Part shown: one piece after another, positions 5,117 to 31,830 of the stretch
Numbering within the stretch: the first letter of the stretch is position 1
How the letters are laid out: each line of letters opens with the position of its first letter
DNA from: a candidate division Zixibacteria bacterium HGW-Zixibacteria-1
GTDB taxonomy: Bacteria > Zixibacteria > MSB-5A5 > GN15 > PGXB01
Direction of reading: 5' to 3'
NCBI GenBank assembly: GCA_002838945.1
Contig: PGXB01000010.1
Span: 62,001-126,000, forward strand
DNA length: 64,000 bases
Made by a program: the position numbers and the translations under genes
Notes under the pieces: model-generated
What the model was told of the DNA's origin: nothing
Databases searched by the model: none
What the model saw: the letters and a program-made list of their open reading frames with translations, nothing else

Positions 5117-5159
5117 CAAAAAAATCGATCAACTGCAAAAAATACGTAAAAACCGGCAA

Positions 5160-7842: not shown

Positions 7843-7913
7843 TTTAATTACAGCGTAAATTCTGCTGCCAAAATCTTTAATTCAGATTTAAGGCAACATT
7901 CAGTAATCCGTTT

Positions 7914-11354: not shown

Positions 11355-11493
11355 GTTCTTGCTCCTTTCAAATTTTTTACAAATTCCCAATTGAATCCCT
11401 AAATTCCTCAAGGCATTTTTGGATTTTTTCAAAACGATTTCGAGATTGAATCCCGAACAGAAAATTTTTACAAAAAGAACTTATTTTCCCGGA

Positions 11494-11831: not shown

Positions 11832-11863
11832 AAAAAAAAGACCGCCCGCAGATGCGGACGGTC
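11832..11863 (-). terminator. strong rho-independent terminator
   Basis: On the minus strand GACCGTCCGC-ATCT-GCGGGCGGTC forms a 10-bp stem (one G-T pair) directly followed by eight T residues. It ends the transcript of the giant Ig-repeat genes. Confidence 0.92.
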
Positions 11864-11891
11864 CGGAAGTAAAGAGGTCTTATATACTAAA

Positions 11892-14800
11892 TTATTGCGG
11901 CGGAGGCGGCCCCGATTTGTAGAAGTAATTCACCAGATAAATGGCATCCAGCAGGTTGAGAGCAGTGTCATAATTGGCATCGGCCGCCTCACTGGAAACC
12001 GGCGCATCTCCGGCCTTGTACAAGTAGTTAATAATAAACAAAACATCCATCAGATTTAGCAGATTGTCGGTATTGGCGTCACCGCGCAAGGTCTGAATTA
12101 CCCTGTAAGTGGCAGTCATAACATTGCTTCCGCCAAGGTTATCGGTAACGGTGAAATTGACCGTGTATGAGGTCCCGGTCTGAGTCATATTGGGAACAAA
12201 AGTGAAGGCGGCGGTCCCGTTGCCGGAATCGACAAATGTAGCGTATGGAATCAGGTTATCGATGGAGAATGTACATGACCCGCCCTCGGGATCCATCGCA
12301 TGAAGGACATCGACATGTGTGAAATCGACCACGGTCACGATGGTATCCGGCAGTTCGGCCATGAAGATCGGCGCCTGATTGCCGGCCTCGACCACCGTTA
12401 TATGGCCCACCAGGGTATCTTCGGAAACACCATCCGAGGCAATAAATCTGACATTATAGATACCGGCCTGGGTGAAATTGGGATAGAATTGGAAGGTTTT
12501 GCGATAGACAAAGATACCGGTAAAATAGGAATTGACCGGCAGGTTTTCGCCACGAAGCGCCGGCAGGCCACCGTCAGGATCGGACGAGATGACTTCGAAA
12601 GTAAGCGTACCGCCCTCGAGGACGGAGAAATTAAGAGTGTCGCCTGTCAGAGTCGATCCCAGGTACTGGACCTGAAGCACCGGCTTTTGGTTCCTGTTAA
12701 ATACATTTATTTTTACAGGATCAATTACGGTAGTATCCGCAGTGTATATCTCATCAACTGCCATAAATGCAATATAGTAGATCACGGGAATGACAGGATT
12801 CGACGAATTTCCCTGAGTATAATCGGGCGCAAAACTGAAGGATCCGGTCCCGTTACCATTGTCGACAAATGTCATGTTTGTCACATATGTCGAAGTTGAC
12901 GTATACACGCCAACACTTGGAATAGTGCTGTCACGATCCAGAGTCAGCACGGTTATACTAATGACATCACCCTCAAAAATATTATAAGTCAAAATATCAG
13001 GGTCAATCGCAATCAGCGGAGGTTGATTCAAATCGGTAACCGTAATACTAACAAATATAGAATCCTGCAAACCGGGATCATCCGAATCGGTAGCGACTAT
13101 TTTGACGGTATAATTTCCGGCAGTATAATAGCTCGTGGTCCAGTTGAATCTTCCTGTAAAATCGCCGTTGTCGGTGAATGTCGCCCCGGTCGGGAGCCCG
13201 CTGGCAGTCAATGTCGGCGGAACCATATCCACGTCCGAAGAAGTGACATTGAAAGTAATCACGGAATTCTCAGAGCCGGTAATGGCGCTCACCGGTGTCA
13301 ATGATGGCGGCTGCGGGCCGGCATCGGTAATGACAATAACAACAATGATGGTATCGACGAACTCGGCATCGGCGGCCATTATATATACATTATAGGTTCC
13401 GGAATCGGTAAAACCGGGCTGAATGAAGATACTTCCCGTGCCGTCACCATGGTTGGTAAAGGTTGCAAATGTGGGCAGCGAATCAACTGTCAGAGTCGGT
13501 ATCGTGCCATCGGGATCAGTCGCATTGATGGCAATTGTCATGGTATCCGTTTCGACGACATTCGGGCTTGTAATCGGATCAATAACCGGTTCCTGGTTGC
13601 CCGCTTCATAAACCTGAATCAGAACATTTTTCTTGGTGACGTCAATGCCGTCATAGGCCTGGACGACGATTCCATAAAGCCCGGCCTGAGTGTAGGCGGG
13701 ACTAAAGGTAAACATCCCGGTGCCGTCGCCATTATCGACGAATGACGAATTGGCCGGAGCCTTTGAAACACTCAATTGCGGGAAGCCGCCGTCGGGGTCG
13801 GTCGCCGAGACCGGAATGTCGAGAGTTCCGCCTTCCCAGACAGTGAAGGCACTGCCTACCACCAGGACCGGCGGGCGGTTCTCCAGAACGATGGTGATCG
13901 TTACCGGCAGAGTCGCCGTCAGCTGCGGGGCACCCATGTCGGTAGCAATAAAGGTCACACTGATGACGCCGGTTTGAGTCGAATCAGGTGTAAAAGTAAA
14001 GGTTCCGGTGTTATTGGCATGATCGACAAAACTGGCATGGGCGGGCGTGCCGACAGCCGTCAGGAAGAGTCGATGAGCGGCGACCGGATCGGTGGAGTCG
14101 GAAGCAGTAATTGTAAAGGTCAGCGTTTCATCGACCACCACACCAAAAGGCCCGGCCGGTTCAATAACCGGCGGCCGGTTGACATCGGTAATAGTTACCA
14201 GCACCTCATTGGTGGATACGGCCGGAGGACTTTGGAAATCAAAGGCCGCAAACCAGATCGTATCCTGGCCGGCATCGAGATAAGTGGCATGATAGCGGAA
14301 AACAGCGACACCATTACCGCTGTCAACAAAGTTGTAATTTAACATGGTGGTGTTGGCCGTAAGATTCACGCCGGAACCATCGGGATCGGTAGCCGTAACC
14401 ACTATTACCAGCGAATCACCCTCGAAAATAGTCGTGTCATTGACAATGCTCATAACCGGCGGCTGGTTGCCCGATTCGGTAACACTGATCGCGACCAGTT
14501 CCGAGTCGGCCAGAGAGCCATCGGAGGCATAGAACAGGACATTGTAAACGCCGGCCTGATTGAAGTTGGGATCAAAGGTAAAGGTCCCGGTGCCGTCGCC
14601 ATTGTCCACGAAACCGCCATTGGTCGGTATCGATTCGGCAATAAGCCCGGGGATGGTACCATCAGGATCGGTCGCGCTGACATTAAATGTCAGGTTGCCG
14701 CCCTCAGACACAAACTTCGCGCCGATGGCGACCAGAACCGGCACCTGATTGCCGGCATCATTGACCGTTATATTAACTAACTCGGAATCAATATCAATAT

Positions 14801-16598
14801 TATCAGAAACATAGAATGTCACCGGATAGAGGCCGGCTTCGGTGAATCCCGGTGTCCAGTCGAAGGTGCCAGTGCCGTCGCCGTTATCGATAAAGGTAGC
14901 GGTTCCCGGCAGCGCCGAAGTGGACAAGACCAGAGGATCGCTATCGCCATCTGTCGCCGTAACCGCGAAATTGAGATTGACCTGCTCATCGGTTGCGCGA
15001 GGTCCGATTGCGGCCAGAACCGGCGGCTGGTTGGTAGTAACAACATCTATCTGAACGACTTCCGAATCGACTAAAGCGCCGTCGAAAGCCTTAAAGGTGA
15101 CGGAATACGTTCCGGCCTGAGTGAGGTCGGGATTGAAGTCAAAGACACCGGTACCATCGCCGTTATCGGTGAAGGTGGCATTGGTCGGAACATCGGTGGC
15201 TGACAATGACGGCGGAATTCCATCAGGATCGGTGGCGCTGATGGCGAAGTTCAAATTCCCACCTTCGACAACCGACCGCGGGCCGATGGCCGCGAGCACC
15301 GGCGGCTGATTGCCGGCATCGGTAACGGTTATGTCAACCAGCTCAGAGACAGTATCGATATTATCGGTAACATAGAATGTCACAGGGTATACTCCGGCCT
15401 CGGTGAATCCGGGCGTCCAGTCGAAGGTCCCGGTTCCATTGCCGTTGTCAATAAACGTGGCCGCACCCGGCAGGGCGGAGGTATAGATAATCAGCGGATC
15501 GCTATCGGAATCAGTCGCAGTCACAGTGAAATTTAAATTAACCGCCTCAACAACATTCCGCGGGCCGATAGCAGTCAGGACCGGCGCCGAATTAGCCAAA
15601 TAAGTGTATCCGCTGACCAGCGGCGAGGAAGGAAGCCCTGATGCGGTATTGGTGACGACGATGTCCGCCAGTCCGGCTGTTCCGGGCGGTGTGATACCGG
15701 TGATCCGATAAGGCGAAACCACCACGGTCGAAACCAGTGAAGCTCCGCCGATAGCTACTGCAGCGCCGTTGATATCGAAATTGCTTCCGTTAATCGTTAC
15801 GGCCGTGCCGCCGACATAGGAACCGGAACTGGGAATGACTGATGCCACGTTCGGTGGTTCGACCAGAGCGGAGTTGACGGTCATCAGGTCGGAATGCGGG
15901 CCGAGAATGCCCGAACCATTCTGCGCAATTACCATATAGGTGTAACTGTCGGTGCCGTTGACGGTATTATCGACAAAGAAACTGTCGGCAGTCCCGGGAT
16001 TAGCCAGTGAACCGGATGGAGCGTCGATTCTGAAGAACGAGCCGCTTGAGGTCGAGGGCCTGCGGTAGACATGATATGTCTGCCCTGCCATATGGTTCCA
16101 GGTGACTATCACCGACGAGCCGGAAACAGCTCTCCCGGCCAAACCGGTCGGTCTTACCGGCCAGGTTACCGGACCAAGGGTTATATTTTCCTGCTGGAAG
16201 GAGTTATTGGGTATCAGTTTGGATAAGACTGCTCCTTCGCCGTTGGCAACATTATAGAAATAATAATCGTATGGAATCCCGGGGGCCTCGGTCAAATAAT
16301 TCTGGAAATCATCGAACCAGTTGCCGGCGTCATAGCCCGCACCGATGGAAGTTTCAAGGCGAACTTCTTCATCGGTATCACCGAGAAATCCATAGAAATT
16401 GACTTCGCCGTTGACCGGGGTTGTCGCATTGGAATTGGCCACCGTTCCGAATATGGACCCCTGCGCAAAGGCTGAAGATGAATATAGAAGTAACATAACC
16501 AACAGCAGATATAGCCACTTTGGTATTTTGCGTTTTGACTTTTTGAAATGCACGTCGGCACCTCCAGATATGTAAAAAACTATTTTATTCATCATCAT
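11892..16598 (-). CDS. giant secreted Ig-repeat protein with C-terminal dockerin
   Basis: This 1568-residue secreted multidomain protein is probably a surface or matrix component. After the signal peptide comes an N-terminal domain (about 45-145), a fibronectin III-like domain (WPVRPTGLAGRAVSG onward), an IPT/TIG domain (VIPSSGSYVGGTAVTINGSN) and about 12 diverged Ig units of He_PIG type (PVLxxIGP ... GDGTGTFDWTP ... AGxYxVTFxxxD). Two dockerin repeats follow, ending YFYKSGPPPPQ. Two starts are possible. ATG 16598 has AAAGGAGAAAAATG. GTG 16553 has GGAGGTGCCGACGTG and gives a shorter, more usual signal peptide (VHFKKSKRK then the hydrophobic core). The gene starts 18 bases after the preceding giant gene and is the last of a four-gene run. 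Its repeats are more diverged from each other than those upstream. No enzyme domain was seen. Confidence 0.88.
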   Translation of the reverse strand: MMMNKIVFYISGGADVHFKKSKRKIPKWLYLLLVMLLLYSSSAFAQGSIFGTVANSNATTPVNGEVNFYGFLGDTDEEVRLETSIGAGYDAGNWFDDFQNYLTEAPGIPYDYYFYNVANGEGAVLSKLIPNNSFQQENITLGPVTWPVRPTGLAGRAVSGSSVIVTWNHMAGQTYHVYRRPSTSSGSFFRIDAPSGSLANPGTADSFFVDNTVNGTDSYTYMVIAQNGSGILGPHSDLMTVNSALVEPPNVASVIPSSGSYVGGTAVTINGSNFDINGAAVAIGGASLVSTVVVSPYRITGITPPGTAGLADIVVTNTASGLPSSPLVSGYTYLANSAPVLTAIGPRNVVEAVNLNFTVTATDSDSDPLIIYTSALPGAATFIDNGNGTGTFDWTPGFTEAGVYPVTFYVTDNIDTVSELVDITVTDAGNQPPVLAAIGPRSVVEGGNLNFAISATDPDGIPPSLSATDVPTNATFTDNGDGTGVFDFNPDLTQAGTYSVTFKAFDGALVDSEVVQIDVVTTNQPPVLAAIGPRATDEQVNLNFAVTATDGDSDPLVLSTSALPGTATFIDNGDGTGTFDWTPGFTEAGLYPVTFYVSDNIDIDSELVNITVNDAGNQVPVLVAIGAKFVSEGGNLTFNVSATDPDGTIPGLIAESIPTNGGFVDNGDGTGTFTFDPNFNQAGVYNVLFYASDGSLADSELVAISVTESGNQPPVMSIVNDTTIFEGDSLVIVVTATDPDGSGVNLTANTTMLNYNFVDSGNGVAVFRYHATYLDAGQDTIWFAAFDFQSPPAVSTNEVLVTITDVNRPPVIEPAGPFGVVVDETLTFTITASDSTDPVAAHRLFLTAVGTPAHASFVDHANNTGTFTFTPDSTQTGVISVTFIATDMGAPQLTATLPVTITIVLENRPPVLVVGSAFTVWEGGTLDIPVSATDPDGGFPQLSVSKAPANSSFVDNGDGTGMFTFSPAYTQAGLYGIVVQAYDGIDVTKKNVLIQVYEAGNQEPVIDPITSPNVVETDTMTIAINATDPDGTIPTLTVDSLPTFATFTNHGDGTGSIFIQPGFTDSGTYNVYIMAADAEFVDTIIVVIVITDAGPQPPSLTPVSAITGSENSVITFNVTSSDVDMVPPTLTASGLPTGATFTDNGDFTGRFNWTTSYYTAGNYTVKIVATDSDDPGLQDSIFVSITVTDLNQPPLIAIDPDILTYNIFEGDVISITVLTLDRDSTIPSVGVYTSTSTYVTNMTFVDNGNGTGSFSFAPDYTQGNSSNPVIPVIYYIAFMAVDEIYTADTTVIDPVKINVFNRNQKPVLQVQYLGSTLTGDTLNFSVLEGGTLTFEVISSDPDGGLPALRGENLPVNSYFTGIFVYRKTFQFYPNFTQAGIYNVRFIASDGVSEDTLVGHITVVEAGNQAPIFMAELPDTIVTVVDFTHVDVLHAMDPEGGSCTFSIDNLIPYATFVDSGNGTAAFTFVPNMTQTGTSYTVNFTVTDNLGGSNVMTATYRVIQTLRGDANTDNLLNLMDVLFIINYLYKAGDAPVSSEAADANYDTALNLLDAIYLVNYFYKSGPPPPQ

Positions 16599-16616
16599 TT
16601 TTCTCCTTTCCTCTTC

Positions 16617-19600
16617 CTATGGTCCGGGAAAAACGTCAACTTGCGCGGCATTGGCCTGATACGGTTTGCCCGGCTTGACCGGGAAATTGACTCCGAATCC
16701 GGCCGCAAAGCGTGATTCATAACTCTGCGAGCCCGCAATATATCTATTAAGCGTATTGAAACTTCCTGGTAAATTATTCAGCACATCCTGCGCCCTCATA
16801 AAATCGGCCTCCCTGTCAAACGGTATCGACAGGAAGCTGAAGTCGGTTGTCGACGTCGTCACCAGTGAATAGCTGATGCTTCCCGGGGCAGGGACAGAAC
16901 CGGCCACGGAGAAGATTGTCGCCGCGGCGGCGTTGACCTGATAAACACCGCCCGGAACAACCGCGAAATTGACACCAAAGCCGGCTGCAAAGCGCGACTC
17001 GAAATTTTGCGAAGCGCTCTGATAATTATTGACCGTATTGACATTGCTGCTGCCAATGGCCGTAATCAACTGAACGGCGTTGGTGATGCCGGTATTCTCG
17101 AAAGGAACGCAAACCAAATTGAAATCGGTCGTCGCCGTGACAATGATCTGATAATCATACTCGCCGACACGGTTGGAAACATCCGATCTGTTTCCGTAAA
17201 TGTCGAAGGCCACCACGACATAGAAATATTGATGCAAGGTATCGCCGACGACATTGACCCCGTTAATATTAAAGTCGGTAAAGGTTAAAGTCAACGGATC
17301 GGTGGTACCGATAGAGTCGGCTGGCTCCGGTGTGAAATAGGCCGTCGTATCGCGATAGATTATATATCCGGCGACCGTCGTGGGGATACCGTCGGTGTCA
17401 AGCGTTATTTCGCTCCATGACAGATCGATGGCATCGGCATTAATCACCGCGGCCAGATCAGATATGGCCTGGGGCGGCGAAGCATTGATGGCCGTCACCA
17501 AGACCGTATCCGGCAGCGAGAACAGGGCGCCGTCATAAACCGTCAGCTCGAACAGGTAGCTGTCCGGCATCGGCGGCATAAAGCTCGGTGACGGATTGGT
17601 CGGGTCGGACAGGGTCACCGAGGCGCCACTCACCTGCACCCAGCTGTATGTCAGCGGGTCGGAGTCGAAGTCGCTCGAGTTGTTGCCGTCGAGGAAGACG
17701 GTCGAATTGACATAGACATCGAACTGATCCGGTCCGGCACTGGCCACCGGCGGCAGATTGACATGATTGACCGTAATGGTCACAAGCTCGCTGTCAATCG
17801 CAATGCCGTCATCGGCATAGAAGGTTATATCATAGATTCCTGATTGCGTATAGTCAGGTGTCCAGTCGAAGACGCCGGTGCCGTCATTGTTATCGGTAAA
17901 GACCGCGCCGAACGGCAAGGTTGACGTGCTCAAAGCCGGGAACGTGCTGTCGGCATCGACCGCCGAGACACCAAAATTGAGATTAACATTTTCATCGATA
18001 ACTTTCGGCCCGATCGGACTGAGGACCGGCGCCTGGTTGCCGGCATCGCTCACGGTTATGCTGACAACCTCGGAGTCAACCGCTGATGAATCATCGGTGG
18101 CATAGAAGGTAACACTGTAAAGGCCGGCCTGTGTGAACAGCGGCGTCCAGTCGAAGGTTCCGGTGCCGTTGCCGTTATCGACAAAACCGGCGCCGAGCGG
18201 CAGAGTTGATGTAGTCAGAACCGGTATTGACTCTATATCCGTCGCAGAGATACCAAAATTCAAATTAACATCTTCGGTCGTTGTCTGCGAACCGATTGTC
18301 GCCAGAATCGGCAACTGGTTGCCGGCTTCAATTACGGTTATTGTTATCGTTTCCGAATCAACTGCCAGCGAATCATCGGTGGCATAGAAAGTGACATCAT
18401 AAGTGCCCGACTGCAGGAAGGTCGGCGTCCAGTTAAAGGTACCGGTGCCGTTACTGTTGTCGGTAAAGCCGGCGCCAACCGGAAGCGTCGAAGTTGTCAG
18501 GGTTGGGATTGACTCTATATCGGTGGCAGATACGCTAAAATTCAAGTTTATATTTTCAGTCGTCGATTGCGCACCGATTGACGCCAGAATCGGCAACTGG
18601 TTGCCGCCCTCGATAACCGTGATGGTAATCGTCTCCGAATCGACCGCCAGCGAGTCATCGGTGGCATAGAAAGTGACATCATATGTACCGGACTGCAGGA
18701 AGGTCGGCGTCCAGTCGAAGGCACCTGTGCCATTTCCATTATCGACAAAGGCGGCGCCGGCAGGAAGTGCCGAGGTCGTCAGGGTCGGAATCGATTCTAT
18801 ATCGGTGGCGGAAACACCAAAGCTTAAATTAACATTTTCATTTGTTGATTGCGAACCTATTGCGGTCAAAATCGGCAACTGGTTGCCGCCGTCATTGACG
18901 GTGATGGTTACCACTTCCGAATCAACGGCCGATGAATCATCAGTCGCATAGAAGGTCACGAAATACGTGCCCGACTGCAGGAAGGTCGGTGTCCAGTCGA
19001 AGGCACCGGTGCTATTTCCATTATTGACAAAGGCGGCGCCGGCAGGAAGTGCCGATGTTGTCAGGGTCGGAGTCGATTCGATGTCAGTGGCCGAGATGCC
19101 GAAGGCCAGATTGACATTTTCCGTCGTTGTCTGCGACCCGATTGCCGCCAGAATCGGCAACTGGTTGCCGGCTTCAATTACGGTTATTGTTATCGTTTCC
19201 GAATCAACCGCCAGCGAATCATCGGTGGCATAGAAAGTCACCATGTAAATACCGGTCTGCAGATAGGTCGGGGTCCAGCTGAAGGCACCTGTGCCATTTG
19301 CATTATCGACAAAGGCGGCGCCGGTCGGCAGAGCCGATGTGGTCAGGGTTGGGATTGACTCTATATCGGTGGCAGATACGCTAAAATTCAAGTTTATATT
19401 TTCAGTCGTTGACTGCGCACCGATCGCGGTCAGAATCGGCAACTGGTTGCCGCCATCAATAACGGTAATGGTAATAGTTTCGGAATCAACCGCCAGCGAG
19501 TCATCGGTAGCATAGAAGGTGACATCATAAGTGCCGGACTGCAGGAAGGTCGGCGTCCAGTCGAAGGCACCTGTGCCATTTCCATTATCGACAAAGGCGG

Positions 19601-22600
19601 CGCCGGCGGGAAGTGCCGAGGTCGTCAAAGTCGGGATTGATTCTATATCGGTGCCTGAGACACCAAAACTCAAATTGACATTTTCGGTAGTTGACTGCGC
19701 CCCGATTGCGGCCAGTATCGGCAACTGGTTGCCCGCTTCGATGACATTGATTGTAATTGTTTCCGAATCAACCGCCAGCGAGTCATCGGTGGCATAGAAG
19801 GTAACATTGTAAATACCGGACTGGAGGAAGGTCGGCGTCCAGTCAAACGACCCTGTGCCATTTCCATTATCGACAAAGCCGGCACCGGCAGGAAGCGCCG
19901 ATGTCATCAAAGCAGGTACTGACTCTATATCAGTAGCGGAGATACCAAAATTCAAATTGACATTCTCGGTGGTCGATTTATTCCCGATAGTCGCCAGAAT
20001 CGGCAACTGGTTGCCGAATTCGGTAACATTAATGGTCACCACTTCCGAATCAACAGCCGAGGAATCATCCGTCGCATAGAAGGTCACAAAATAAGTGCCC
20101 GACTGCAGGAAGGTCGGTGTCCAGTCGAAGGCACCTGTGCCATTTCCATTATCGACGAAGGCGGCGCCGGCAGGAAGTGCCGACGTGGTCAGGATCGGAG
20201 TTGATTCTATATCTGTGGCGGATATGCCAAAACTCAGATTTATATTTTCGGTGGTTGACTGCGCACCAATCGCGGCCAGGATCGGCAGCTGATTGCCCGC
20301 TTCGATCACGGTAACGGTAATTGTCTCCGAATCGACCGCAAGCGAGTCATCGGTGGCATAGAAGGTAACATCATAAGTGCCGGACTGCAAGAAGGTCGGC
20401 GTCCAGTCGAAGGTTCCTGTGCCATTTCCATTATCGACAAAAGCGGCTCCGGCAGGAAGTGCCGAGGTCGTCAAAGTCGGGATTGATTCTATATCGGTGC
20501 CTGAGACACCAAAACTCAAATTGATATTTTCGGTTGTTGACTGCGCCCCGATTGCGGCCAGTATCGGTAACTGGTTGCCCGCTTCGATGACATTGATTGT
20601 AATTGTTTCCGAATCAACCGCCAGCGAGTCATCGGTGGCATAGAAGGTAACATTATAAATACCGGACTGGAGGAAGGTCGGTGTCCAACTGAAGGCACCT
20701 GTGCCATTGCCATTATCGGTGAATCCAGCGCCGGCAGGAAGTGCCGATGTCGTCAAAGTCGGAGTCGATTCTATATCGGTGGCGGATATACCAAAACTCA
20801 GATTTATATTTTCGGTGGTTGACTGCGCACCAATCGCGGCCAGGATCGGCAGCTGATTGCCCGCTTCGATCACGGTAACGGTAATGGTTTCCGAATCGAC
20901 CGCCAGCGAATCATCGGTCGCATAGAAAGTGACATCATATGCTCCTGATTGCAGGAAAGTCGGCGTCCAGGTAAATGATCCGGTGCCATTGCCATTATCG
21001 GTGAATCCAGCACCGGCCGGAAGGATCGACGTTGTCAAAGCCGGAGTCGATTCTATATCACTGGCTGAAATACCAAAGTTCAGATTCACATTCTCGGTTG
21101 TTGATCGGTCACCGATTGCGGCCAGAACCGGTAACTGGTTGCCGAATTCAGTCACGGTTATGGTAACTTCTTCGGAATCCACGGCCAGCGAGTCATCGGT
21201 CGAATAGAAGGTAACATTGTAAATACCGGACTGGAGGAAGGTCGGCGTCCAGGTGAAGGCACCTGTGCCATTGCCATTGTCGGTGAAACCGGCTCCGGTC
21301 GGAAGGGTCGATGTTGTCAAAGCCGGGGTCGATTCAATATCAGTGGCCGATACGCCAAAACTTAGATTGACATTTTCGGTAGTTGTCTGGGTTCCGATTG
21401 CGGCCAGAATCGGCAGCTGATTGCCCGCTTCATTGACCGAAATCGTGATTTTCTCCGAGTCAACCGCCAGCGAGTCATCGGTGGCGTAGAAGGTAACATC
21501 ATAAGTACCGGACTGCAGGAAGGTCGGTGTCCAGTTGAAGGCACCTGTGCCATTTCCATTATCGACAAAAACGGCACCAGCAGGTAGAGTCGATGTCGTC
21601 AGACTCGGGGTTGATTCTATATCGGTAGCGGAAATTATAAAGTTCAAATTGGTATTTTCATTTGTGGACCGCGCTCCAATCGCCGCCAGAATCGGCAATT
21701 GGTTGCCGCCGTCATTAACAGTAATCGTGACCACTTCGGAATCGACCGCCGCGGTATCGTCGGTAGCATAGAAGGTTACACTATAGATGCCGGACTGGAG
21801 GAAGGTCGGTATCCAGCTGAAGCTTCCGGTCCCATTATTATTATCAGTAAAGACGGCCCCGATGGGCAACGAAGACGTTGTCAGATGCGGGATGGTCAAA
21901 TCGGCATCACTCGCTGAGACACCAAAACTGAGGTTCACATTTTCCGTCGTTGATTTCGGGCCGATAGCGGCCAGAACCGGTGTCTGATTACCGGCTTCGT
22001 TGACGGTAATGGTTACCAAATCGGTATCGGAATAGACACCATCGGTGGCATAGAAGGAAATATTGTACGATCCTGATTGCGTAAATCCGGGTGTCCAGTT
22101 AAATGTACCGGTGCCGTTATGATTGTCCACAAACGTTGCGCCGGAAGGCAGCGCCGTCGTCGTCATAACCGGATTGGTTCCATCGGGATCGGACGCGGTG
22201 ACGCCAAAATTAAGATTGACGCCCTCGGTGGTTGACCGATTGCCGATGGTCGTCCAGACCGGAGCCTGGTTGCCGGTTTCAAAAACGTTTATGTATATCT
22301 GCTCGGAATCGGTGGCAACACCATCCGAGGCATAGAATGTCACGCTATAAGCGCCTGCCTGCGTAAAGTTGGGCGTCCAGGTGAAATTGGCGGTGCCGTT
22401 GCCGTTATCGGTAAAGCCGGCGCCGGAAGGCAGAGCCGAGGTTGTCAATGCCGGGGTTGTCGAATCCGCATCGGTCGCGGAAACATTGAAATTCAGGTTG
22501 ACACCTTCACTGATAAATTTATTCCCGACTGCGGCCAGCACCGGAGTCTGGTTGCCGGCCTCAACGACGGTTATCGTCACAACTTCGGAATCAACCGCCA

Positions 22601-25600
22601 AAGAATCATCGGTCGCATAGAATGTAACGGTATATATACCGGACTGATTGAAGACCGGTGTCCAGCCGAAGGTGCCGGTGCCGTTTCCATTATCACTGAA
22701 TGATGCACCAGAAGGTAATGAGGAACTTGTCAATACCGGTATGAAACCATCGGCATCACCGGCCGAAATACCAAAACTCAGATTGACCCCTTCGGTAACT
22801 GATCTTGGGCCGATCGCGGCCAGAACCGGCGGGAGGTTAACCTGATTGACGGTTATGGATATTACTTCCGAATCGACGACGAGCGAATCATCAGTTGCAT
22901 AGAATGTGATCGAATATGGCCCCGCTTGGGTGAAATCAGGTGTCCAGATGAATGTCTCGGTTCCTGTGCCCGTGCTGCTGAATGTTGCACCGGACGGGAG
23001 CGCCGATGTCGTCAGAGTCGGAATTGTACCATCCGGATCGGTGGCCGAGACGGTGAAATTCAGATTGACGCCTTCGTCAACAATTTTATTTCCAATCGCC
23101 GCCAGAACCGGCGGGAGATTGACCTGATTAATGGTAAATGTAACCACCTCGGAATCAACCGCGGTAGAATCATCGGCGGCATAAAATGTAATATTATAAA
23201 TTCCGGACTGCCCAAAATCGGGTGTCCAGTTAAATGTCTCGGTGCCCGTTCCGGCAGCCGTAATTGTCGCGCCGGTAGGAAGCAGGGAAGTGGTTATAGT
23301 CGGAGTCGATTCTATATCGGTGGCGCTGACCGTGAAATTGATATTAACATTTTCATCGGCCGATTTCGGGCCGATCGCGGCCAGAATCGGCAACTGGTTG
23401 CCGGCTTCGATGATATTTATCGTTACGATTTCCGAATCAACCGCAGAAGAATCATCGGTGGCATAGAACGTAACCGTGTATGGCCCTGATTGCAGGAAAG
23501 TCGGGGTCCAGTTGAATGTCCCGGTACCATCACCGTTATCGGTAAAGCCGGCGCCGGTCGGAAGAGACGATGTAGTCAATGCCGGTATGTCACCATCAGA
23601 ATCGGAAGCACTCACCGCAAAATTGAGATTTATATTTTCGGTCGTGGATCGACTGCCGATCGCCGCCAGAATCGGCGGCAGATTGACCTGATTCACCGTA
23701 ATAGAGACAACTTCCGAGTCAACCGCTGATGAATCATCAGTCGCATAGAAAGTAACCGAATATGTACCCGACTGGGTGAAGTCCGGTGTCCAGTTAAAGG
23801 TCCCGGTTCCACCGCCGGCACTCGTAAAGGTGGCGCCGCTCGGTAAGGCCGAACTTGTAATTATCGGGATGGTCCCGTTGGGGTCGGTGGCGCTTACGGC
23901 AAAATTCAGGTTTGCACCTTCGTTAATCGATTTGGAACCGATTGTCGCCAGAACCGGTGCCTGATTACTGTTGAAGACCTGGATGGTCACAGCTTCCGAA
24001 TCAATGGCCAGTGAATCATCAGTCGCATAAAACTTGACGATGTAAACACCGGACTGCGTGAAGTTGGGCGTCCAGCTAAAAACACCGGTACCGTCATGAT
24101 TATCGGTAAATCCGGCACCATCCGGCAATGACGATGTACTTAGGCTCGGAATGGACTCAATATCGGTGGCCGAAACACCAAAACTAAGATTGACACTTTC
24201 GGGTGCCGACTTAAAGCCGATTGCCGCCAGTACTGGAAGCTGATTGCCGGCCTCTATAATATTTATCGTAACGATTTCCGAATCTACCGCCAATGAATCA
24301 TCGGTCGCATAGAAGGTGACCGTGTATGGGCCGGACTGCAGGAAGGTCGGGTTCCAATCGAAGGTGCCGGTGCCGGTGCCATTGCCATTGTCATTGAAAG
24401 CGGCGCCGGCCGGCAAAGTTGAAGTTGTCAATATTGGAGTTGATTCTATATCGGTAGCGGAAATCACAAAATTCAAATTAACATTTTCGATCGTGGACTG
24501 TGTTCCGATCAATGTCAGCACCGGAGCCTGATTGCCGCCGTCAATGACTGTAATGCTTACGACTTCGGAATCAACGGCTGAAGAATCATCCGTCGCATAG
24601 AAGGTCACGGAGTAATTCCCGGACTGCAAATATGTCGGTGTCCAATTGAATGTGCCGGTATTATTGCCATTGTCACTGAAAGTGGCGCCGCCCGGTAAGG
24701 TCGTATGGGTCAGCACGGCAATAGTGCCGTCAATATCGCTGACACTGATGCCAAAATTAAGATTGATCCCCTCAGTTGTTGACTGGGAGCCAATTGCGGC
24801 AAGAACGGGCGGCTGATTTATCTGGTTGACCGTGATCGTCACGACTTCGGAATCAACGGCTGAAGAATCATCCGTCGCATAGAAAGTAACTGTATATGGC
24901 CCGGCCTGAGTGAAATCAGGCGTCCAGTCGAATGTCTCGGTGCCGGTCCCGGTTGACGTGAACGTCGCGCCGGTATTCTTGGAGCCGATCGAAGCCAGAA
25001 CCGGTACTAAATTAACCTGGTTGACGGTTATCGATACAACTTCGGAATCGACGGCTGAAGAATCATCCGTGGCATAAAATGTCACTGTATATGGACCGGC
25101 TTGCGTGAAGCCGGGCGTCCAGTCGAATGTCTCGGTGCCGGTTCCGGTTGACGTGAACGTCGCGCCGGTCGGGAGCGCCGAGGTTGTTATTATCGGGGTC
25201 GTGCCGTCGGCATCGGTCGCTGATACGGTGAAATTCAGATTGACGCCTTCATCGGTGCTCTTTGAACCGATCGAAGCCAGGACGGGTATTAAATTAACCT
25301 GGTTGACCGTGATTGAGACGACTTCGGAATCAACCGCCGAAGAATCATCAGTCGCATAGAAAGTAACTGTATATGGCCCGGACTGGGTAAAGTTGGGTGT
25401 CCAGTCGAAAGTTTCGGTGCCGGTTCCGGTACTCGTGAAAGTCGCGCCGGTCGGGAGCGCCGAGGTTGTTATAATCGGTGTCGTGCCGTCGGCATCAGTC
25501 GCCGAAACACTGAAATTCAGATTGACGCCTTCATTGATGTTCTTTGCGCCGATAGCTGCCAGAACCGGTGTCAGATTGACCTGGTTGACCGTTATCGATA

Positions 25601-26013
25601 CAACTTCGGAGTCAACGGATGAAGAATCATCAGTCGCGTAAAATGTAACTGTATATGGCCCGGACTGCGTGAAGTTGGGTGTCCAGTCGAATGTCTCGGT
25701 GCCGGTTCCGGTACTTGTGAATGTCGCACCGGTCGGGAGGGCCGAGGTTGTTATTATCGGAGTGGTGCCGTCGGCATCGGTCGCCGAGACACTGAAGTTC
25801 AGATTGACACCTTCATCGGTGCTCTTTGAACCGATCGAAGCCAGGACGGGTGTCAGATTGATCTGACCAACTGTAATGGTTACAACTTCGGAATCAACGG
25901 CTGAAGAGTCATCAGTCGCATAGAAAGTAACTGTATATGGCCCGGCCTGAGTGAAATCAGGCGTCCAGTCGAATGTCTCGGTGCCGGTCCCGGTTGACGT
26001 GAACGTCGCGCCG
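16617..26013 (-). CDS. giant Ig-repeat surface protein, main part after a frameshift
   Basis: This is the long 3' part of a secreted repeat protein whose 5' part is at 25880-27028. The frame is open from the junction near 26013 to the stop at 16617. Its first conventional start codon is a GTG at 25085, inside a repeat and without ribosome site, so this is not an independent gene. It holds units 5 to 33 of a He_PIG-type Ig array. A K319L/REJ-like domain (PPVASAGPDQFDVYVNST), a fibronectin III-like domain and two copies of an 80-residue terminal domain follow (each with ESRFAAGFGVNF, then PGGVYQVNAA or PGKPYQANAA). It has neither dockerin nor type IX-like tail. With the N-terminal part the protein would be about 3470 residues. 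It is probably an adhesin or matrix protein. Confidence 0.85.
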
Positions 26014-26935
26014 AAACACTAAAGTTCAGATTGACACCTTCATCGGTGCTCTTCGAGCCGATCGAAGCCAGAACCGGTACTAAATTAACCTGGTTGACCG
26101 TGATTGAGACAACTTCGGAATCAACCGCCGAAGAATCATCAGTCGCATAGAAAGTCACCGTATATGGCCCGGCCTGAGTGAAATCAGGCGTCCAGTCGAA
26201 TGTCTCGGTGCCGGTCCCGGTCGAGGTGAACGTCGCGCCGGTTGGGAGCGCCGAGGTTGTTATAATCGGGGTAGTACCATCGGCATCAGTCGCTGAAACA
26301 CTGAAATTCAGATTGACACCTTCATTGGTGTTTTTCGCGCCGATCGAAGCCAGAACCGGTACTAAATTAACCTGATTGACTGTTATCGTCACAACTTCGG
26401 AATCAACCGCCGAAGAATCATCCGTGGCATAAAATGTCACCGTATATGGCCCGGCCTGTGTGAAATCAGGCGTCCAGTCGAAAGTCTCGGTGCCGGTCCC
26501 GGTCGATGTGAACGTCGCGCCGGTCGGGAGCGCCGAGGTTGTTATAATCGGGGTCGTGCCATCGGCATCGGTCGCCGAAACACTGAAATTCAGATTGACG
26601 CCTTCATTGGTGTTCTTCGAGCCAATCGAAGCCAAAACCGGTACTAAATTGACCTGGTTGACGGTGATTGAGACGACTTCGGAGTCAACGGATGAAGAAT
26701 CATCCGTGGCATAAAATGTAACAGTATATGGCCCGGCCTGAGTGAAATCAGGTGTCCAGTCGAAGGTCTCGGTGCCGGTTCCGGTACTTGTGAATGTCGC
26801 ACCGGTCGGGAGTGCCGAGGTTGTTATGGTCGGGATGCCTTCGGTGTCAGTTGCGGAGACGCTAATATTAAGATTAACGCCTTCATCAACCGATCGATTT
26901 CCAATCGCATTTAATACCGGTGGTTGATTGGCCTG
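17757..26935 (-). repeat. tandem array of about 33 Ig-like (He_PIG type) units
   Basis: The unit is about 280 bases (about 93 residues). The pattern is NQxPxLAAIGxxSTxExxNLxF, then DIESxPxLTTSxLPxGA, GNGTGxFxWTP, SGxYxVTFYATDDS and AVDSExVTIxV. Units 1-8 (transcript order) form a near-identical group with GTGTETFDWTP and VNQVNL linkers. Units 9-19 are diverged. Units 20-32 form a second similar group with GNQLPILAAIG. Unit 4 lacks 55 bases (frameshift) and unit 8 lacks 87 bases (in frame). Confidence 0.9.
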
Positions 26936-27028
26936 GGCCATGGCCGAACCTGATAAAAAGACGGCCATTGCCGCGATGTATATTAGAATCCTTATATTCA
27001 TACCTCTTATACTTCCTCTTGTATTCAT
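25880..27028 (-). CDS. giant Ig-repeat surface protein, N-terminal part ending in a frameshift
   Basis: This is the 5' part of the giant gene. The 382-codon frame starts at 27028, with an alternative ATG ten codons in (MNIRILIYIAAMAVFLSG) that opens a typical signal peptide ending at AMAQA. Three full He_PIG units follow. In the fourth the frame breaks after NLNFSVSA, and the last 46 residues are out-of-frame repeat sequence. At the break (about 26009-26014) the unit lacks 55 bases present in its neighbours, between two CGGCG copies. Gene length 10412 plus 55 is 10467, or 3489 codons, so restoring them restores the whole frame. The gene starts 15 bases after the upstream stop. Mutation, programmed variation and assembly error in repeats are all possible. 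Confidence 0.85.
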   Translation of the reverse strand: MNTRGSIRGMNIRILIYIAAMAVFLSGSAMAQANQPPVLNAIGNRSVDEGVNLNISVSATDTEGIPTITTSALPTGATFTSTGTGTETFDWTPDFTQAGPYTVTFYATDDSSSVDSEVVSITVNQVNLVPVLASIGSKNTNEGVNLNFSVSATDADGTTPIITTSALPTGATFTSTGTGTETFDWTPDFTQAGPYTVTFYATDDSSAVDSEVVTITVNQVNLVPVLASIGAKNTNEGVNLNFSVSATDADGTTPIITTSALPTGATFTSTGTGTETFDWTPDFTQAGPYTVTFYATDDSSAVDSEVVSITVNQVNLVPVLASIGSKSTDEGVNLNFSVSARRSRQPGPAPRHSTGRLISLRPGHIQLLSMRLMTLQPLIPKL

Positions 27029-27043
27029 TGCCAGTCCTCCGGT

Positions 27044-29767
27044 CTATTTCAGTAAGAGCATCTTTTTGGACTCGGCTCTGTCTCCGACCTCGAGTCTGTA
27101 TAGATAAATTCCGGTTGCGACGCGCTTTCCATAGTTATCGGTCGCATCCCAAATCACTGTATGTCGTCCGGCCGACATTTCTTCATTTACCAGCGTCTTA
27201 ACCTGTTGGCCAAGGATGTTATAGACATTTAATTTCACTTTTTCCATGGCAATTCCATTAAGACCGATTTCGAAATCGATTCTGGTCGCCGGATTGAACG
27301 GATTGGGGTAATTCTGATATAGTTCGAAAGTGGTCGGAAGAATCGGCGGATTATCAGGTTCAGTCGGTATTTCCGTGGCTTTGGCGGTCGACAAAAAGAC
27401 CTGTGAAATTTTGATTTTCGACTTATCGTTGGCCTGAATATCCTGCTTTGCGACGGCCGGGATGCTGATAATATCAGAGGCTCCGGCCGGTATTAATGAT
27501 TCGGGGTTGGCCAGGTCGAAGCTGTTATACATGACAATTTTCAGACGACCATTAAGATTGTCATTGGATATCAATGTGAATTTTTTGTCCGTGAAGGCCA
27601 GTTCCGGCTTCAGCAGATCGATGGCATGGGGGTCATAATCGACCCGCAATTCGATTCCGGCGACATCATCAGGAAATTCCCCGCGAACATTCAGAGTCGT
27701 AAATTTACCGGCCATCAGATTGTCGTAATCCATATCAACAGTGGCATAAACGCCATCATAGGACACCGGCGACGGGGTTGATTCGACCGGAATACCGAGT
27801 ATCATATTAATGATACCAACCAAATCGATGACATTAACGATCGTATCCTGTATGATGTTGGCACAGTCGAAGTTACGTTTCGGGAGGATATTCAGTTCCA
27901 AAATGTGGGCCACAATAGCGGTCAGATCGGCGACGTCAATACGTCCTTCGAGGTTAACATCCCCAAGCCGATCAACCTGAATAATTCCGGAATCGACCTT
28001 GAGAGCCAGCGATGAATCCTGATAGCTCGGGCTGATTGACTCCCAGGCGTCGAAGAAATGCACCCAGTAATCGCCGGGCGTGGCCGATGAATCCATGGAA
28101 AAATAGGCGTTCAATATCGCCTGCGAGGAGCCATCGGCAACCGGCTCGCTGGCCAGACCAAAAGTAATGATCCTCATGACATCCGGTGTCTGACCGAGAG
28201 CATAGACAATGTATTCAGGAATTCGATCCGTTACGTTAACGGAATCCAATTCGACAATAGAAAGTGGAAATTGCATGTCAAAATTAAGGCCATAAACGGT
28301 TCGTGACGTGACAAGATCAATCGGCATTACGATAGGAGTTGTCCCTGGAATACCACCCACAGGCCAGTTGTTGGGACTCTTGACCGATGACGTAAAGAGT
28401 CGATCCTGATCAAGCTCTTTTACTACAACGGTTACTGTCTTTTCACCGGTAGCATTCAAAATATCAGTGCCTCTGAAAGTGATATTGAATGACCCCTTCT
28501 GGCTGAAATTTGGGGTCCAACTGAAAGTGGTTGTAATCGGCCCGACTCCGCAGGGATTTGCAGGAGATACGCTCGCGCCCGCCGGAAGAGTACCAATGGC
28601 GGCAAGACAAAGACTCTGGCCGTCGGGATCAGTAGCGCTAACCGTGAAGGCCAGCAATTCGCCCTGCATAATTTCATAACTTGACTGCGAAACCGTCACG
28701 ATAGGAGCATTGTTTGTGCTGGTGCCTGAAACAGTAATCGTCACCGACTTGGTCACCGGCGCCGCGATACTGTCGGTCAGCTGAAATGTTGCGGTATAAG
28801 TGCCGTTAGCGCTCGGTACCCAGCTGAACTGGCGAGAGACCGCGCCCGCACCCGAAGCGGACGAAAAACTTGCGCCCGCGGGCAGGTTGGTGGCGGTCAA
28901 ATAGATCATATCACCGTCGATGTCGCTGCCGTTGACCGTGAAATTGACCGCGGTACCGGGCGTAACATTATAAGTATCCGGAGAAATCGCCAGAACCGGA
29001 GCATGATTAATTTTGGGCGCCACCCGGAAAAGTCCCCGGGTTTTCATCGGCTCAATATAGAGAAGACCGGTGCTGTCGGAGAATTGGCAGACCGGGTCGG
29101 TCGCGTCATACTGGTTATTTTTCGGTGTAACCCACGTCGTTTGATCAAGAACAGCATTGGGATTGACCACCATCGGAATATACATGATAACATCCTGAGT
29201 AGCCGAAGACGGCAATAGCGGCCAGTTTGAATATTTCAGGGGATCAGGCGCCGTCGGCAAAAATTGAATATACATGACATCGGAACTTCGGGCCTCAGGC
29301 GGATCATTCTTGACATTAATATGACTATAAATCGTATCCGGAAGCTGCCCCGGCAATGGAAACAGCCCCATTTTAATACCACGACCCACCATCTCAAACT
29401 GGAAATAGTAAACGGCCGTATCGCCGGAAGGGAGGACGGCGGCTTGATCAACAACCGGGACAAGCAGCGGGTTGGTGGGTGTCCAAGCGGCTTCCGTATT
29501 TAGCTCGAATCTAAGTATAAAACCGCCCAGCGAACCGTCAGCGGCGAGCTCCTCACTGGTCACCGGGTCCGTCACCACGTGAGTCGTATCATAGTTCTTG
29601 ATTATTATCGGCATCAGGACCGTATCGCCCGGCAAGGCCTGAAAGCCGCCGACAATGACGGTATAATTGGGATCATTAAAGACCGGTTCATTGACCTGTG
29701 AATTGCCATATATAGGCATCAGCAAAATCATCATTGACAGTAATAGCGGGATTTTGACAAATCGCAT
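27044..29767 (-). CDS. secreted Ig, cohesin-like and dockerin-like protein with type IX-like tail
   Basis: The ATG at 29767 has AGAGGTGG just upstream and opens a clean signal peptide (MRFVKIPLLLSMMILLMP), giving 907 residues. An in-frame ATG at 29815 also has GAGG, overlapping the upstream stop, and would add 16 residues. After an N-terminal beta-rich region of about 230 residues come two Ig units (APVLAISPDTYNVTPG and APIVTVSQSSYEIMQG), a cohesin-like domain, a dockerin-like pair (GDVNLEGRIDVADLTAIVAHI and DTIVNVIDLVGIINMILG), a second cohesin-like domain and a FlgD-like tail (YQNYPNPFNPATR, VYNILGQ, ATGIYLYRL, SKKMLLLK). It is the second gene of the four-gene run, 11 bases after the first. 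It probably sits on the cell surface; its ligand is unknown. Confidence 0.88.
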   Translation of the reverse strand: MRFVKIPLLLSMMILLMPIYGNSQVNEPVFNDPNYTVIVGGFQALPGDTVLMPIIIKNYDTTHVVTDPVTSEELAADGSLGGFILRFELNTEAAWTPTNPLLVPVVDQAAVLPSGDTAVYYFQFEMVGRGIKMGLFPLPGQLPDTIYSHINVKNDPPEARSSDVMYIQFLPTAPDPLKYSNWPLLPSSATQDVIMYIPMVVNPNAVLDQTTWVTPKNNQYDATDPVCQFSDSTGLLYIEPMKTRGLFRVAPKINHAPVLAISPDTYNVTPGTAVNFTVNGSDIDGDMIYLTATNLPAGASFSSASGAGAVSRQFSWVPSANGTYTATFQLTDSIAAPVTKSVTITVSGTSTNNAPIVTVSQSSYEIMQGELLAFTVSATDPDGQSLCLAAIGTLPAGASVSPANPCGVGPITTTFSWTPNFSQKGSFNITFRGTDILNATGEKTVTVVVKELDQDRLFTSSVKSPNNWPVGGIPGTTPIVMPIDLVTSRTVYGLNFDMQFPLSIVELDSVNVTDRIPEYIVYALGQTPDVMRIITFGLASEPVADGSSQAILNAYFSMDSSATPGDYWVHFFDAWESISPSYQDSSLALKVDSGIIQVDRLGDVNLEGRIDVADLTAIVAHILELNILPKRNFDCANIIQDTIVNVIDLVGIINMILGIPVESTPSPVSYDGVYATVDMDYDNLMAGKFTTLNVRGEFPDDVAGIELRVDYDPHAIDLLKPELAFTDKKFTLISNDNLNGRLKIVMYNSFDLANPESLIPAGASDIISIPAVAKQDIQANDKSKIKISQVFLSTAKATEIPTEPDNPPILPTTFELYQNYPNPFNPATRIDFEIGLNGIAMEKVKLNVYNILGQQVKTLVNEEMSAGRHTVIWDATDNYGKRVATGIYLYRLEVGDRAESKKMLLLK

Positions 29768-29826
29768 TACCCACCTCTCGGTATTATCATTTTTGAATAT
29801 TTTTTCCCTGTTCATATATCAATACC

Positions 29827-31830
29827 TCACTTAAGAAGTAACATTTTTTTCCTGGCTGAAAATATATCGCTGTCCAGACTGTAAAAATATATCCCGCTGG
29901 CGACTGCCTGCCCCTGATCATCACGGGCGTCCCATACGGCAACATGTCGGCCCGCGGGAAGAATCTGATCGACAAGGCTCCGGATTTCCTGACCAAGAAT
30001 ATTATAAACGGTCAAGCGCACCGAAGCGGCCTGTGTAAGGTCGAATCTTATTTCTGTCGACGGATTGAACGGATTGGGATAATTCTGATAAAGAGTGAAA
30101 GACTCGGGAAGGAAAGCATCCGAATTATTTTCGAGACTCGATTTCATGATGTACCCGTCAACCGTCGAAAGTTGAATATCTTTTATCGTGAAACCGGAAT
30201 GATTCACAACCTCGATAAACTCATGCCGGCCGGACGGCATAATCTCACCTTCATCACTGTAAATCAAAAACCTGATGAGATTGCCCTCCACGGCCGACTT
30301 CACTGTCATTCCGGACATTTCAAATTGCGACCTGATAACTGTTTCAATATCTAACTTATTATCTCCCTGCAAAGTAATGGCCAATCCACCCAGATTCTCC
30401 GGGGAATCATAAATAAGGCGGTAATAGCCTTCATTATTGTCAATGCCGATACGCACAATCCCGTCAAAGGGCGAAATTTTGGGACTGCCCATCCCCGCAT
30501 TCACAATAACGTTAAGCAAATAGACCAGATCGGCGATCGTTCCGCCATGGCCGTCCCGGTTGACATCCGAATTGAGCCACTGAGCCGGTGACAACGGCAC
30601 CAGGGTCGGATTAATAAAATAATTCGTAAAATAAATAACATCGCCGATCTCATAAGGGACGCCATTGAGGTTGATATCCCCCAGACTGTTGAGAGAAGTC
30701 GACTTAATTTTGATATAACCGCGGGTAAAAGTGATCTGATTCGGAATTATTTTATCACCGAGTTCATTGGTCAAAGAGTTGTCATTTTGCTCGATCGGAT
30801 CGCGAAAAACAAATATCAAAGGAATTGAAAGACCGGCATACTGTAGATTATTACTGACGTAAAATTGCATCGCCGCCAGCGGCCCTGAACCGGGCTGAAT
30901 ATCGGTTCCAGCCACGCCCCCTTCAAGATCGGCGATACCGGTCAGAAGGACATCCCCGAAGATGCCGCGATTATTCAGCTTATATGTAAAATACTCAAAA
31001 CCTCCCGACCTGGTCCCGGTTTTCGTGATTGAGGACAGTGTCAGAACGCTGACATCATAATTGAAAAGAATGTTAAATCCGGAAATTGCCTCAAGATTAT
31101 CAAACATCAAATGTGCCGTCGCATATTCACCCGGATAAACCGAAATGGTGTCAAGCGCCAGACTGTAAACATCCGTCGATAGGACATTCAGGGCCACCGT
31201 GGCGGTATCGGCAGCGCCAAACTGATCGACCAGACAAACCTTAACATCATAAAAGCCGGAGTCGGAAAAAGCCGTTTTCCAGGTAAATGTTCCGGGATTG
31301 CCGCCGAGAAATTCCACGCCGCCGGGAGCGTCAAGTATCATCCAGTTGACCGGATCCAGGTCGGGATCGTAACCGGAAACATCAAAAGCCAGTTCTTCGC
31401 CCGAATTAATGGTCACGGTCCCGGGTGATGTTATAACAGGATTTCTATTACGATTTATTACAATCACTTCCGTCTGCAAAACGGCGGTATTCTGGCCGTC
31501 GCCGGCCCAGAATGTCAGGGCATAAGGCGAGCCCTCGGATGAATTCGGGCCGCCGAAATCGGTCTGCCATATTAAAACGCCGGTTCCATCTCCATGATCG
31601 GCAAACGAGGCGCCGGCGGGACGGGTCAAAGTGCCCAGCGAAAGCGGATCACCATCACTATCAACAGCTTCGACAGCCAGTTGAAGCCTATTACCCTCAA
31701 GAACATACTGGCGCGATATCGGCTTAAACTCGGGAACGGCGCTTCCGGCTACCGCCAAAGACGGTAACACCATGGCCCCCAAGCCGATTATGAGCAGGAT
31801 TATGATAATAGTTACTATTCTATAAAACAT
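29827..31830 (-). CDS. secreted Ig, cohesin-like and dockerin-like protein with type IX-like tail
   Basis: This 667-residue protein is the first gene of the four-gene run. The hydrophobic N-terminus (MFYRIVTIIIILLIIGLG) is a signal peptide. Two Ig units follow (about 35-130 and 130-225, with DHGDGTGVLIWQTDF and GNPGTFTWKTAFSDSG), then a cohesin-like domain (VYPGEYATAHLMFDN to PNQITFTRGYIKI). A dockerin-like pair follows in which the two halves are far apart (LGDINLNGVPYEIGDVIYFT and DVNRDGHGGTIADLVYLLNV). After a second beta domain comes a FlgD-like tail (YQNYPNPFNPST, VYNILGQ, ASGIYFYSL, ARKKMLLLK). The stop TGA is embedded in a sequence that serves as ribosome site for the next gene, suggesting coupled translation. 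Confidence 0.88.
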   Translation of the reverse strand: MFYRIVTIIIILLIIGLGAMVLPSLAVAGSAVPEFKPISRQYVLEGNRLQLAVEAVDSDGDPLSLGTLTRPAGASFADHGDGTGVLIWQTDFGGPNSSEGSPYALTFWAGDGQNTAVLQTEVIVINRNRNPVITSPGTVTINSGEELAFDVSGYDPDLDPVNWMILDAPGGVEFLGGNPGTFTWKTAFSDSGFYDVKVCLVDQFGAADTATVALNVLSTDVYSLALDTISVYPGEYATAHLMFDNLEAISGFNILFNYDVSVLTLSSITKTGTRSGGFEYFTYKLNNRGIFGDVLLTGIADLEGGVAGTDIQPGSGPLAAMQFYVSNNLQYAGLSIPLIFVFRDPIEQNDNSLTNELGDKIIPNQITFTRGYIKIKSTSLNSLGDINLNGVPYEIGDVIYFTNYFINPTLVPLSPAQWLNSDVNRDGHGGTIADLVYLLNVIVNAGMGSPKISPFDGIVRIGIDNNEGYYRLIYDSPENLGGLAITLQGDNKLDIETVIRSQFEMSGMTVKSAVEGNLIRFLIYSDEGEIMPSGRHEFIEVVNHSGFTIKDIQLSTVDGYIMKSSLENNSDAFLPESFTLYQNYPNPFNPSTEIRFDLTQAASVRLTVYNILGQEIRSLVDQILPAGRHVAVWDARDDQGQAVASGIYFYSLDSDIFSARKKMLLLK

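Follow-up and report, generated by a model that had tools for sequence, protein, structure and literature searches.

Do the four adjacent genes at positions 11892 to 31830 of a 64,000-nucleotide stretch of DNA from a candidate division Zixibacteria bacterium encode the parts of one surface structure, or secreted repeat proteins that each act alone? The stretch, referred to here as the window, comprises positions 62001 to 126000 of contig PGXB01000010.1 (contig C10 of genome G000, which has 3.8 Mb in 82 contigs). A sequence-only reading of the window had described four giant secreted proteins with a common immunoglobulin-like (Ig) unit, made coordinately from one close-packed operon as a surface assembly whose parts are attached by different routes. 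The comparisons presented here favor, with a probability of roughly 0.6, reading the locus as one surface assembly of the Zixiibacteriota that would be anchored through the type IX secretion system (T9SS), held together by cohesin-dockerin pairing, and equipped with a giant Ig stalk made in one or two pieces.

Attachment modules and operon structure

The four genes are numbered 1 to 4 from the upstream end (Table 1). Genes 1 (30.8 bits) and 2 (31.0 bits) matched the T9SS type A tail profile (TIGR04183; cut-off, 23 bits), and Por_Secre_tail was found at an E value of 0.01 in 9/9 gene 1 orthologs and 10/10 gene 2 orthologs. Profile scans found no T9SS tail on genes 3 and 4. The gene at 32349, upstream of gene 1, belongs to a family with Por_Secre_tail in 7/7 orthologs. 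T9SS machinery is present in the genome, including SprA (620 bits) and the PorU sortase (663 bits), together with 10 PorV-family genes above cut-off and 51 type A tails. From these tails and the machinery, we infer that T9SS exports the products of genes 1, 2, and 32349 and keeps them at the surface.

The sequence-only reading had overlooked that genes 1 and 2 carry cohesin modules. Pfam Cohesin (PF00963) was matched in 8 of 9 gene 1 orthologs (best E value, 2.7e-13) and in 8 of 10 gene 2 orthologs (best E value, 3.5e-15), with Dockerin_1 matched in 6 of the latter 10, and solved scaffoldin cohesins in the PDB matched the profiles of both genes. The second cohesin-like module of gene 2 corresponds to a weak match at residues 715 to 812. 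Cohesin was also matched in 2 of 7 orthologs of the 32349 gene, and one cohesin match in the genome itself falls at this gene. The dockerin of gene 4 scored 25.0 bits (Dockerin_1 cut-off, 22.9 bits), and the Pfam scan gave no cohesin match in this protein. With cohesins on genes 1 and 2, gene 4 would most likely be attached by its dockerin to T9SS-anchored products of its own operon, so that the idea of separate attachment routes has to be modified. Given the conserved gene order described below, a single surface assembly made coordinately is kept as the best reading.

A hidden Markov model (HMM) built from the unit of gene 3 was used to count Ig-unit copies and found 2 in gene 1, 2 in gene 2, 34 in gene 3 (4 and 30 in its two frames), and 12 in gene 4, which bears out the proposal that all four genes share one type of unit. 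The C-termini differ, as had also been proposed, with T9SS type A tails on genes 1 and 2, an FnIII unit plus a duplicated domain on gene 3, and a dockerin on gene 4. The description of all four products as giant did not hold, as those of genes 1 and 2 have 667 and 923 amino acids (aa) and only genes 3 and 4 encode giants.

All four genes are encoded on the minus strand, and the bases between them number 11, 15, and 18, within the range described before; the TGAGGT ribosome site of gene 2 includes the stop codon of gene 1, and the strong terminator noted behind the last gene corresponds to a hairpin 3' of gene 4. Two terminator-like sites were found in the scan that detected this hairpin (0.4 expected), and between 16400 and 35300 such sites were at chance level (20 found versus 19.2 expected). 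Genes 1 to 4 thus have the features of a single operon: same strand, short gaps, no strong internal terminator, and a terminal terminator. The last gap is probably longer than it appears. A GGAGGT ribosome site and a GTG codon precede the gene 4 signal peptide, and GGAGG was kept across the phylum, in 20/20 aligned gene 4 upstream regions and at the identical position in 18; of the two exceptions, one is moved by a 6-base deletion and one is differently arranged. Because of this conservation, the true start of gene 4 is probably the GTG at 16553, which would make the gap 63 bases, although the more upstream ATG is also retained in most relatives. The in-frame peptide "GGA.V" of several open reading frames (ORFs) is the GGAGGT site translated as protein, and gene starts in the gene 4 family are likely misannotated by ORF finders.

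Gene order and the split and fused forms of the giant protein

Within the reach of their contigs, the family relatives that were read first, five in number (loci L007, L008, L009 with L010, L011, and L012), repeated the order dockerin protein, 32349-type gene, gene 1, gene 2, and repeat gene; all five contigs stop near or in gene 3. Later loci, picked because the gene 3 end or a full gene 1 was present on them, retained the order across families of one phylum, the Zixiibacteriota. Gene 2 was adjacent to gene 1 in 23/23 genomes with both (gap, −109 to 171 bases, of which the strongly negative end depends on the start chosen), and a repeat ORF started 4 to 218 bases past gene 2 in 21/21 genomes whose contig continues; the proposed set thus survived a check of its conservation. 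The 32349-type gene stood ahead of gene 1 in 21 of the 22 genomes with room for it. A dockerin ORF lies between these two genes in G060, an N run and unrelated genes replace the 32349-type gene in G051, and the G020 contig begins inside gene 1. A full-length gene 1 match (profile start ≤30, end ≥667, E < 1e-160) was found in 57 of the 132 Zixiibacteriota genomes that formed the comparison set for module presence counts. The gene 3 end alignment, used as a probe, retrieved 24 loci, 23 of them strong, with record titles of Zixiibacteriota, Zixibacteria, GN15, "bacterium," "FCB group bacterium," and "Ignavibacterium sp."; the single weak match was in Moheibacter (L095; 42% over 51 residues). No related locus was confirmed in a contig search with gene 2, and the gene 2 N-terminus alone was a poor probe (6/146 genomes).

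The gene 3 end module had a strong match in 36 of the 132 genomes, at one place each (in two pieces in G118), with weak partial matches in 5 further genomes. A full gene 4 head was found downstream on the same strand in 36/36 genomes with a strong gene 3 end, at a distance of 145 to 186 bases in 34; the remaining two, G019 and G025, have a head paralog in between and a distance of about 1.3 kb. Both modules were present in 36 genomes, the full head alone in 2, and neither in 94 (Fisher test, P = 2e-30, a value to be read with the relatedness of the genomes and with contig breaks that take both modules away together).

Five genomes with neither module (G026, G030, G046, G060, and G094) have, after gene 2, one protein of 3,056 to 5,949 aa. 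These fused giants end in a dockerin-like domain; among the two covered by the Pfam scan, that of G046 scored 26.8 bits and that of G030 gave no row at an E value of 1e-5, being dockerin-like by eye. Their last 150 aa matched gene 4 orthologs best in 5/5 cases (117 to 145 bits versus 59 to 86 bits for the best other dockerin class), and they are followed, as in the window, by all or part of the 7914-, 5160-, 3896-, and 1340-type genes. Because the fused giant takes the place of gene 3 and keeps the C-terminus of gene 4, genes 3 and 4 are judged by homology to correspond to one protein of the fused genomes. Misassembly as the source of the fused giants was rejected, as the end modules had no match elsewhere in those five genomes at the search thresholds; G094, moreover, is one contig with 99% completeness. 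On a tree of genes 1 and 2 for 16 genomes of known state, in which some nodes had support of <0.9, the fused genomes fell at four places (four changes by parsimony count), and the states were not more clustered than in shuffles (P = 0.49; small sample). Small dockerin and T9SS-tail proteins that are related to one another stand in a row behind the fused giant of G094 (L126; G094:C1:656001-676000).

The four genes of the proposed set are real, and the conserved neighborhood is wider, extending upstream over 32349 to 36365 and often downstream over 1340 to 11432, about ten genes in all (Table 1). All or part of the 7914-, 5160-, 3896-, and 1340-type genes follow the giant gene in many relatives. 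Upstream of the cluster, a DUF5686/CarbopepD_reg protein is encoded at 38039 to 40399, and a 56% identical gene lies upstream in G009 (L012:5163-7523).

Table 1. Features of the conserved neighborhood, in window positions
Feature	Positions	Strand	Length	Modules and remarks
Small secreted dockerin protein, first gene of neighborhood	35235-36365	-	376 aa	Dockerin_1, 48.6 bits; syntenic in relatives
Surface protein (32349)	32349-34943	-	864 aa	Ig-like, cohesin-like, and dockerin-like modules; T9SS type A tail
Gene 1	29827-31830	-	667 aa	2 Ig units, cohesin, dockerin-like module (by eye), T9SS type A tail
Gene 2	27044-29815	-	923 aa	N-terminal cohesin, 2 Ig units, dockerin, second cohesin-like module, T9SS type A tail; alternative start 29767
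Gene 3, overall span	16617-27028	-		Two frames as assembled
Gene 3, first frame	25880-27028	-	382 aa as assembled	Signal peptide and Ig units to frameshift
Gene 3, join of 55-base loss	26009-26013	-		5-base microhomology
Gene 3, second frame	16617-26018	-	3133 aa	30 Ig-unit matches, PKD-like unit, FnIII, duplicated domain
Gene 3, C-terminal module	16620-17459	-		FnIII (residues 1-102) and twofold repeated domain
Gene 4	11892-16598	-	1568 aa counted from ATG	Conserved head, TIG, 12 Ig units, C-terminal dockerin
Gene 4, probable ribosome site and start	16551-16567	-		GGAGGT and GTG (16553) before signal peptide
Gene 4, conserved head	15867-16463	-		Beta-sandwich and FnIII (alignment, model, fold search)
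Terminator-like hairpin 3' of gene 4	11839-11864	-		11 pairs, 8 GC, T-run
Secreted dockerin protein, usually next gene in relatives	7914-11432	-	1172 aa	Dockerin_1, 27.6 bits
Subtilisin-like protease	5160-7574	-		Peptidase_S8, 128.7 bits; PKD; Dockerin_1, 30.0 bits
T9SS-tailed protein	3896-4834	-		Outer edge of neighborhood
GH35-like protein	1340-3526	-		Outer edge of neighborhood

Proposed assembly and competing explanations

In the assembly favored here, the products of genes 1, 2, and 32349 would be exported by T9SS and held at the outer surface, where their cohesin modules, recognized by homology, would act as sockets. The giant Ig-repeat protein would form a long stalk, which in some lineages is a single polypeptide whose terminal dockerin would be the plug. 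In the lineage of the window the stalk would be divided between gene 3, whose product closes with FnIII and the duplicated domain, and gene 4, which supplies the head, further Ig units, and the dockerin; gene 4 would dock on a cohesin and gene 3 would lengthen the stalk, both together equaling the one-piece protein. Judged by the number of Ig units, such fibres might measure roughly 100 to 200 nm. These sockets probably also receive the neighboring dockerin proteins 35235 and 7914 and the protease 5160. The weakest step of this proposal is its ordinary function, probably adhesion or the retention of enzymes and matrix at the surface.

A more tentative extension, to which we give well under an even chance, is that genes 3 and 4 form one fibre in two pieces joined after secretion, with the strongly conserved gene 3 end and the likewise strongly conserved gene 4 head as a joint replacing a peptide bond. 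Binding between these modules is suggested by their strict pairing and by their being absent together. Head paralogs, at least one of which lies beside a dockerin, would be short adaptors hooking gene 3 onto a cohesin, and recombination between flanking Ig repeats would remove both joint halves in one event and yield a one-piece fibre, several times in the phylum. Short paralogs of the gene 4 head (about 300 aa) include a copy in the genome itself (G000:C21:49912-50502) with an adjoining dockerin match (50524-50685). By hand count, they occurred in 19/36 split genomes versus 0/5 fused genomes, which fits the joint weakly. Speaking against it, G003 and G103 contain a full head without a gene 3 end, and a further hand count gave 19 genomes with a short head paralog and no gene 3 end match; these 19 argue against strict dependence unless the assemblies, which may be incomplete, lack it. 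The head model (mean predicted local distance difference test score [pLDDT], 81) was beta-rich with an FnIII-like half, and its fold search returned generic Ig/FnIII pairs only. For the gene 3 end module (mean pLDDT, 77, with lower confidence in the duplicated part), fold search matches (Foldseek, VIA) covered residues 1 to 102, the FnIII unit only (best Z, 10.8; root mean square deviation, 1.7; 79 residues), and a PDB sequence search gave nothing useful (best E value, 0.96). The lack of a listed fold for the duplicated part, which is modeled at low confidence and barely covered by matches, is not evidence of a new fold.

The genes might instead be linked merely because secreted Ig-repeat proteins cluster and duplicate, each product acting alone, for example, as an independent adhesin, with a cohesin-dockerin pair inside the chain serving stability. 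Gene 2 orthologs do have cohesin and dockerin matches in the same chain, dockerin-like modules were seen by eye beside the cohesins in gene 1 and 32349, and dockerin-like C-termini are widespread, at 109 places in the genome. We nevertheless consider such independence unlikely, given that gene order is kept across many families, that genes 3 and 4 act as a unit, being fused in five genomes with the gene 4 C-terminus retained, and that gene 4 has a dockerin and no cohesin match. A single T9SS-anchored assembly has points of its own to answer. The cohesin scores of genes 1 and 2 in this genome (17.6 and 16.4 bits) are under the Pfam cut-off of 24.1 bits; cohesin and dockerin share one chain in both genes, so that internal pairing is possible; dockerin matches outnumber cohesin matches at an E value of 0.001 (109 versus 4), which implies that there are few sockets or that they have diverged beyond the reach of the Pfam model; promoter-like sites outnumber those in shuffled sequence (40 versus 21.9), which makes an internal promoter possible; and gene 3 is broken as assembled.

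Were the locus a cellulosome-like enzyme complex, the T9SS-anchored cohesins would serve chiefly to bind enzymes with dockerins, protease 5160 among them, and the only role of the giant Ig protein would be to space these off the cell. That protease does lie within the conserved neighborhood, and "Candidatus Stygibacter" has dockerin peptidases together with a surface-anchored scaffoldin, according to the accessible part of its description (PMC8542988). This explanation is quite unlikely, since the Pfam scan found no credible catalytic domain in genes 1 to 4, no run of cohesins occurs on a single scaffold, and the 5160-type gene is absent after gene 4 in G034, G059, and G084, which keep the giant gene. 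The break in gene 3 raises the further idea that it is a dying pseudogene in this species and that the assembly is no longer made as described. The spacing of its units is 282 bases (a few are off by 3 or 6) except for 227 once, where the 55 missing bases shift the frame, and 195 once at about 24973, where 87 bases are missing in frame. Both damaged units, however, are joined to one common right-hand partner and are identical over the 98 bases that follow, as repeat misassembly could give, and relatives, too, have contigs that break off within gene 3, among them the single contig of G008 at both of its ends. In the sister species G001, of the same genus, the first 272 aa are intact and 77% identical, and the ratio of nonsynonymous to synonymous substitution rates (dN/dS) against it was 0.09 for these residues and 0.09 for the last 538 aa, on the two sides of the frameshift; genes 1 to 4 are under purifying selection (dN/dS, 0.09 to 0.18). 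Because both sides are under such selection, the break is taken as a misassembly or a recent event, and decay of gene 3 as very unlikely.

Intact gene 3 orthologs have 3,317, 5,200, and 5,339 aa in G017, G019, and G033, respectively. Programmed frameshifting in gene 3 was rejected, as the 55-base loss in a repeat accounts for the shift and intact orthologs exist. In the single-contig genome G008, both contig ends (L058 and L108) fall inside the gene 3 repeat array: one follows the 35235-type gene through gene 2, and the other precedes gene 4; the array thus appears to defeat assembly.

Comparison with known systems

Little seems known about the surface of Zixiibacteriota, and the locus described here gives the phylum a defined and conserved surface machine: giant Ig fibres, with as many as about 59 Ig units, on which anchoring by T9SS and docking by cohesin-dockerin pairs would come together. 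Repeated switching between one and two pieces, always with the same pair of end modules, represents a natural experiment on the joining of very long extracellular proteins, and the split and fused pattern predicts a specific protein-protein joint of two small domains. Searches of open-licence PubMed Central (PMC) found nothing on Zixibacteria with dockerin, type IX secretion, or a giant Ig-like repeat.

Genes 1 and 2 score over the cut-off for T9SS type A cargo (TIGR04183), with the machinery present, whereas genes 3 and 4 showed no such tail. Like the Tandem-95 and He_PIG giant repeat proteins (NF012211 and PF05345), the giants contain long runs of Ig-like units of about 94 aa; unlike in those proteins, in some lineages the repeat chain here is divided between two genes that carry dedicated, conserved ends.

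Clostridial cellulosomes combine cohesin-dockerin logic with Gram-positive anchoring. The locus shares this logic, with PDB scaffoldin cohesins matching genes 1 and 2, but has T9SS in place of Gram-positive anchoring and no cellulase or cellulose-binding module in genes 1 to 4. No such enzyme or module was found among the Pfam matches of genes 1 to 4 and the ten neighboring proteins scanned, and for this reason the assembly, which is predicted to work like a cohesin-dockerin surface system, is not regarded as a cellulosome in the strict sense.

The nearest comparison is with the cellulosome-like structure of "Ca. Stygibacter" (Cloacimonadota), which has a surface-anchored scaffoldin of 3,755 aa with tandem cohesins and carbohydrate-binding modules (PMC8542988). 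As far as the accessible part of that report goes, the two share a large noncatalytic cohesin surface protein, a conserved C-terminal attachment domain (with reference to T9SS), and secreted dockerin proteins that include S8 peptidases. A T9SS-anchored cohesin-dockerin assembly is known from Cloacimonadota; searches of open-licence PMC turned up neither a giant Ig fibre of this kind nor its split form. In contrast to the single scaffoldin described in that report, the cohesins here are spread over a number of smaller proteins with T9SS tails, and the giant, a rod of Ig units in one or two pieces, itself bears the dockerin.

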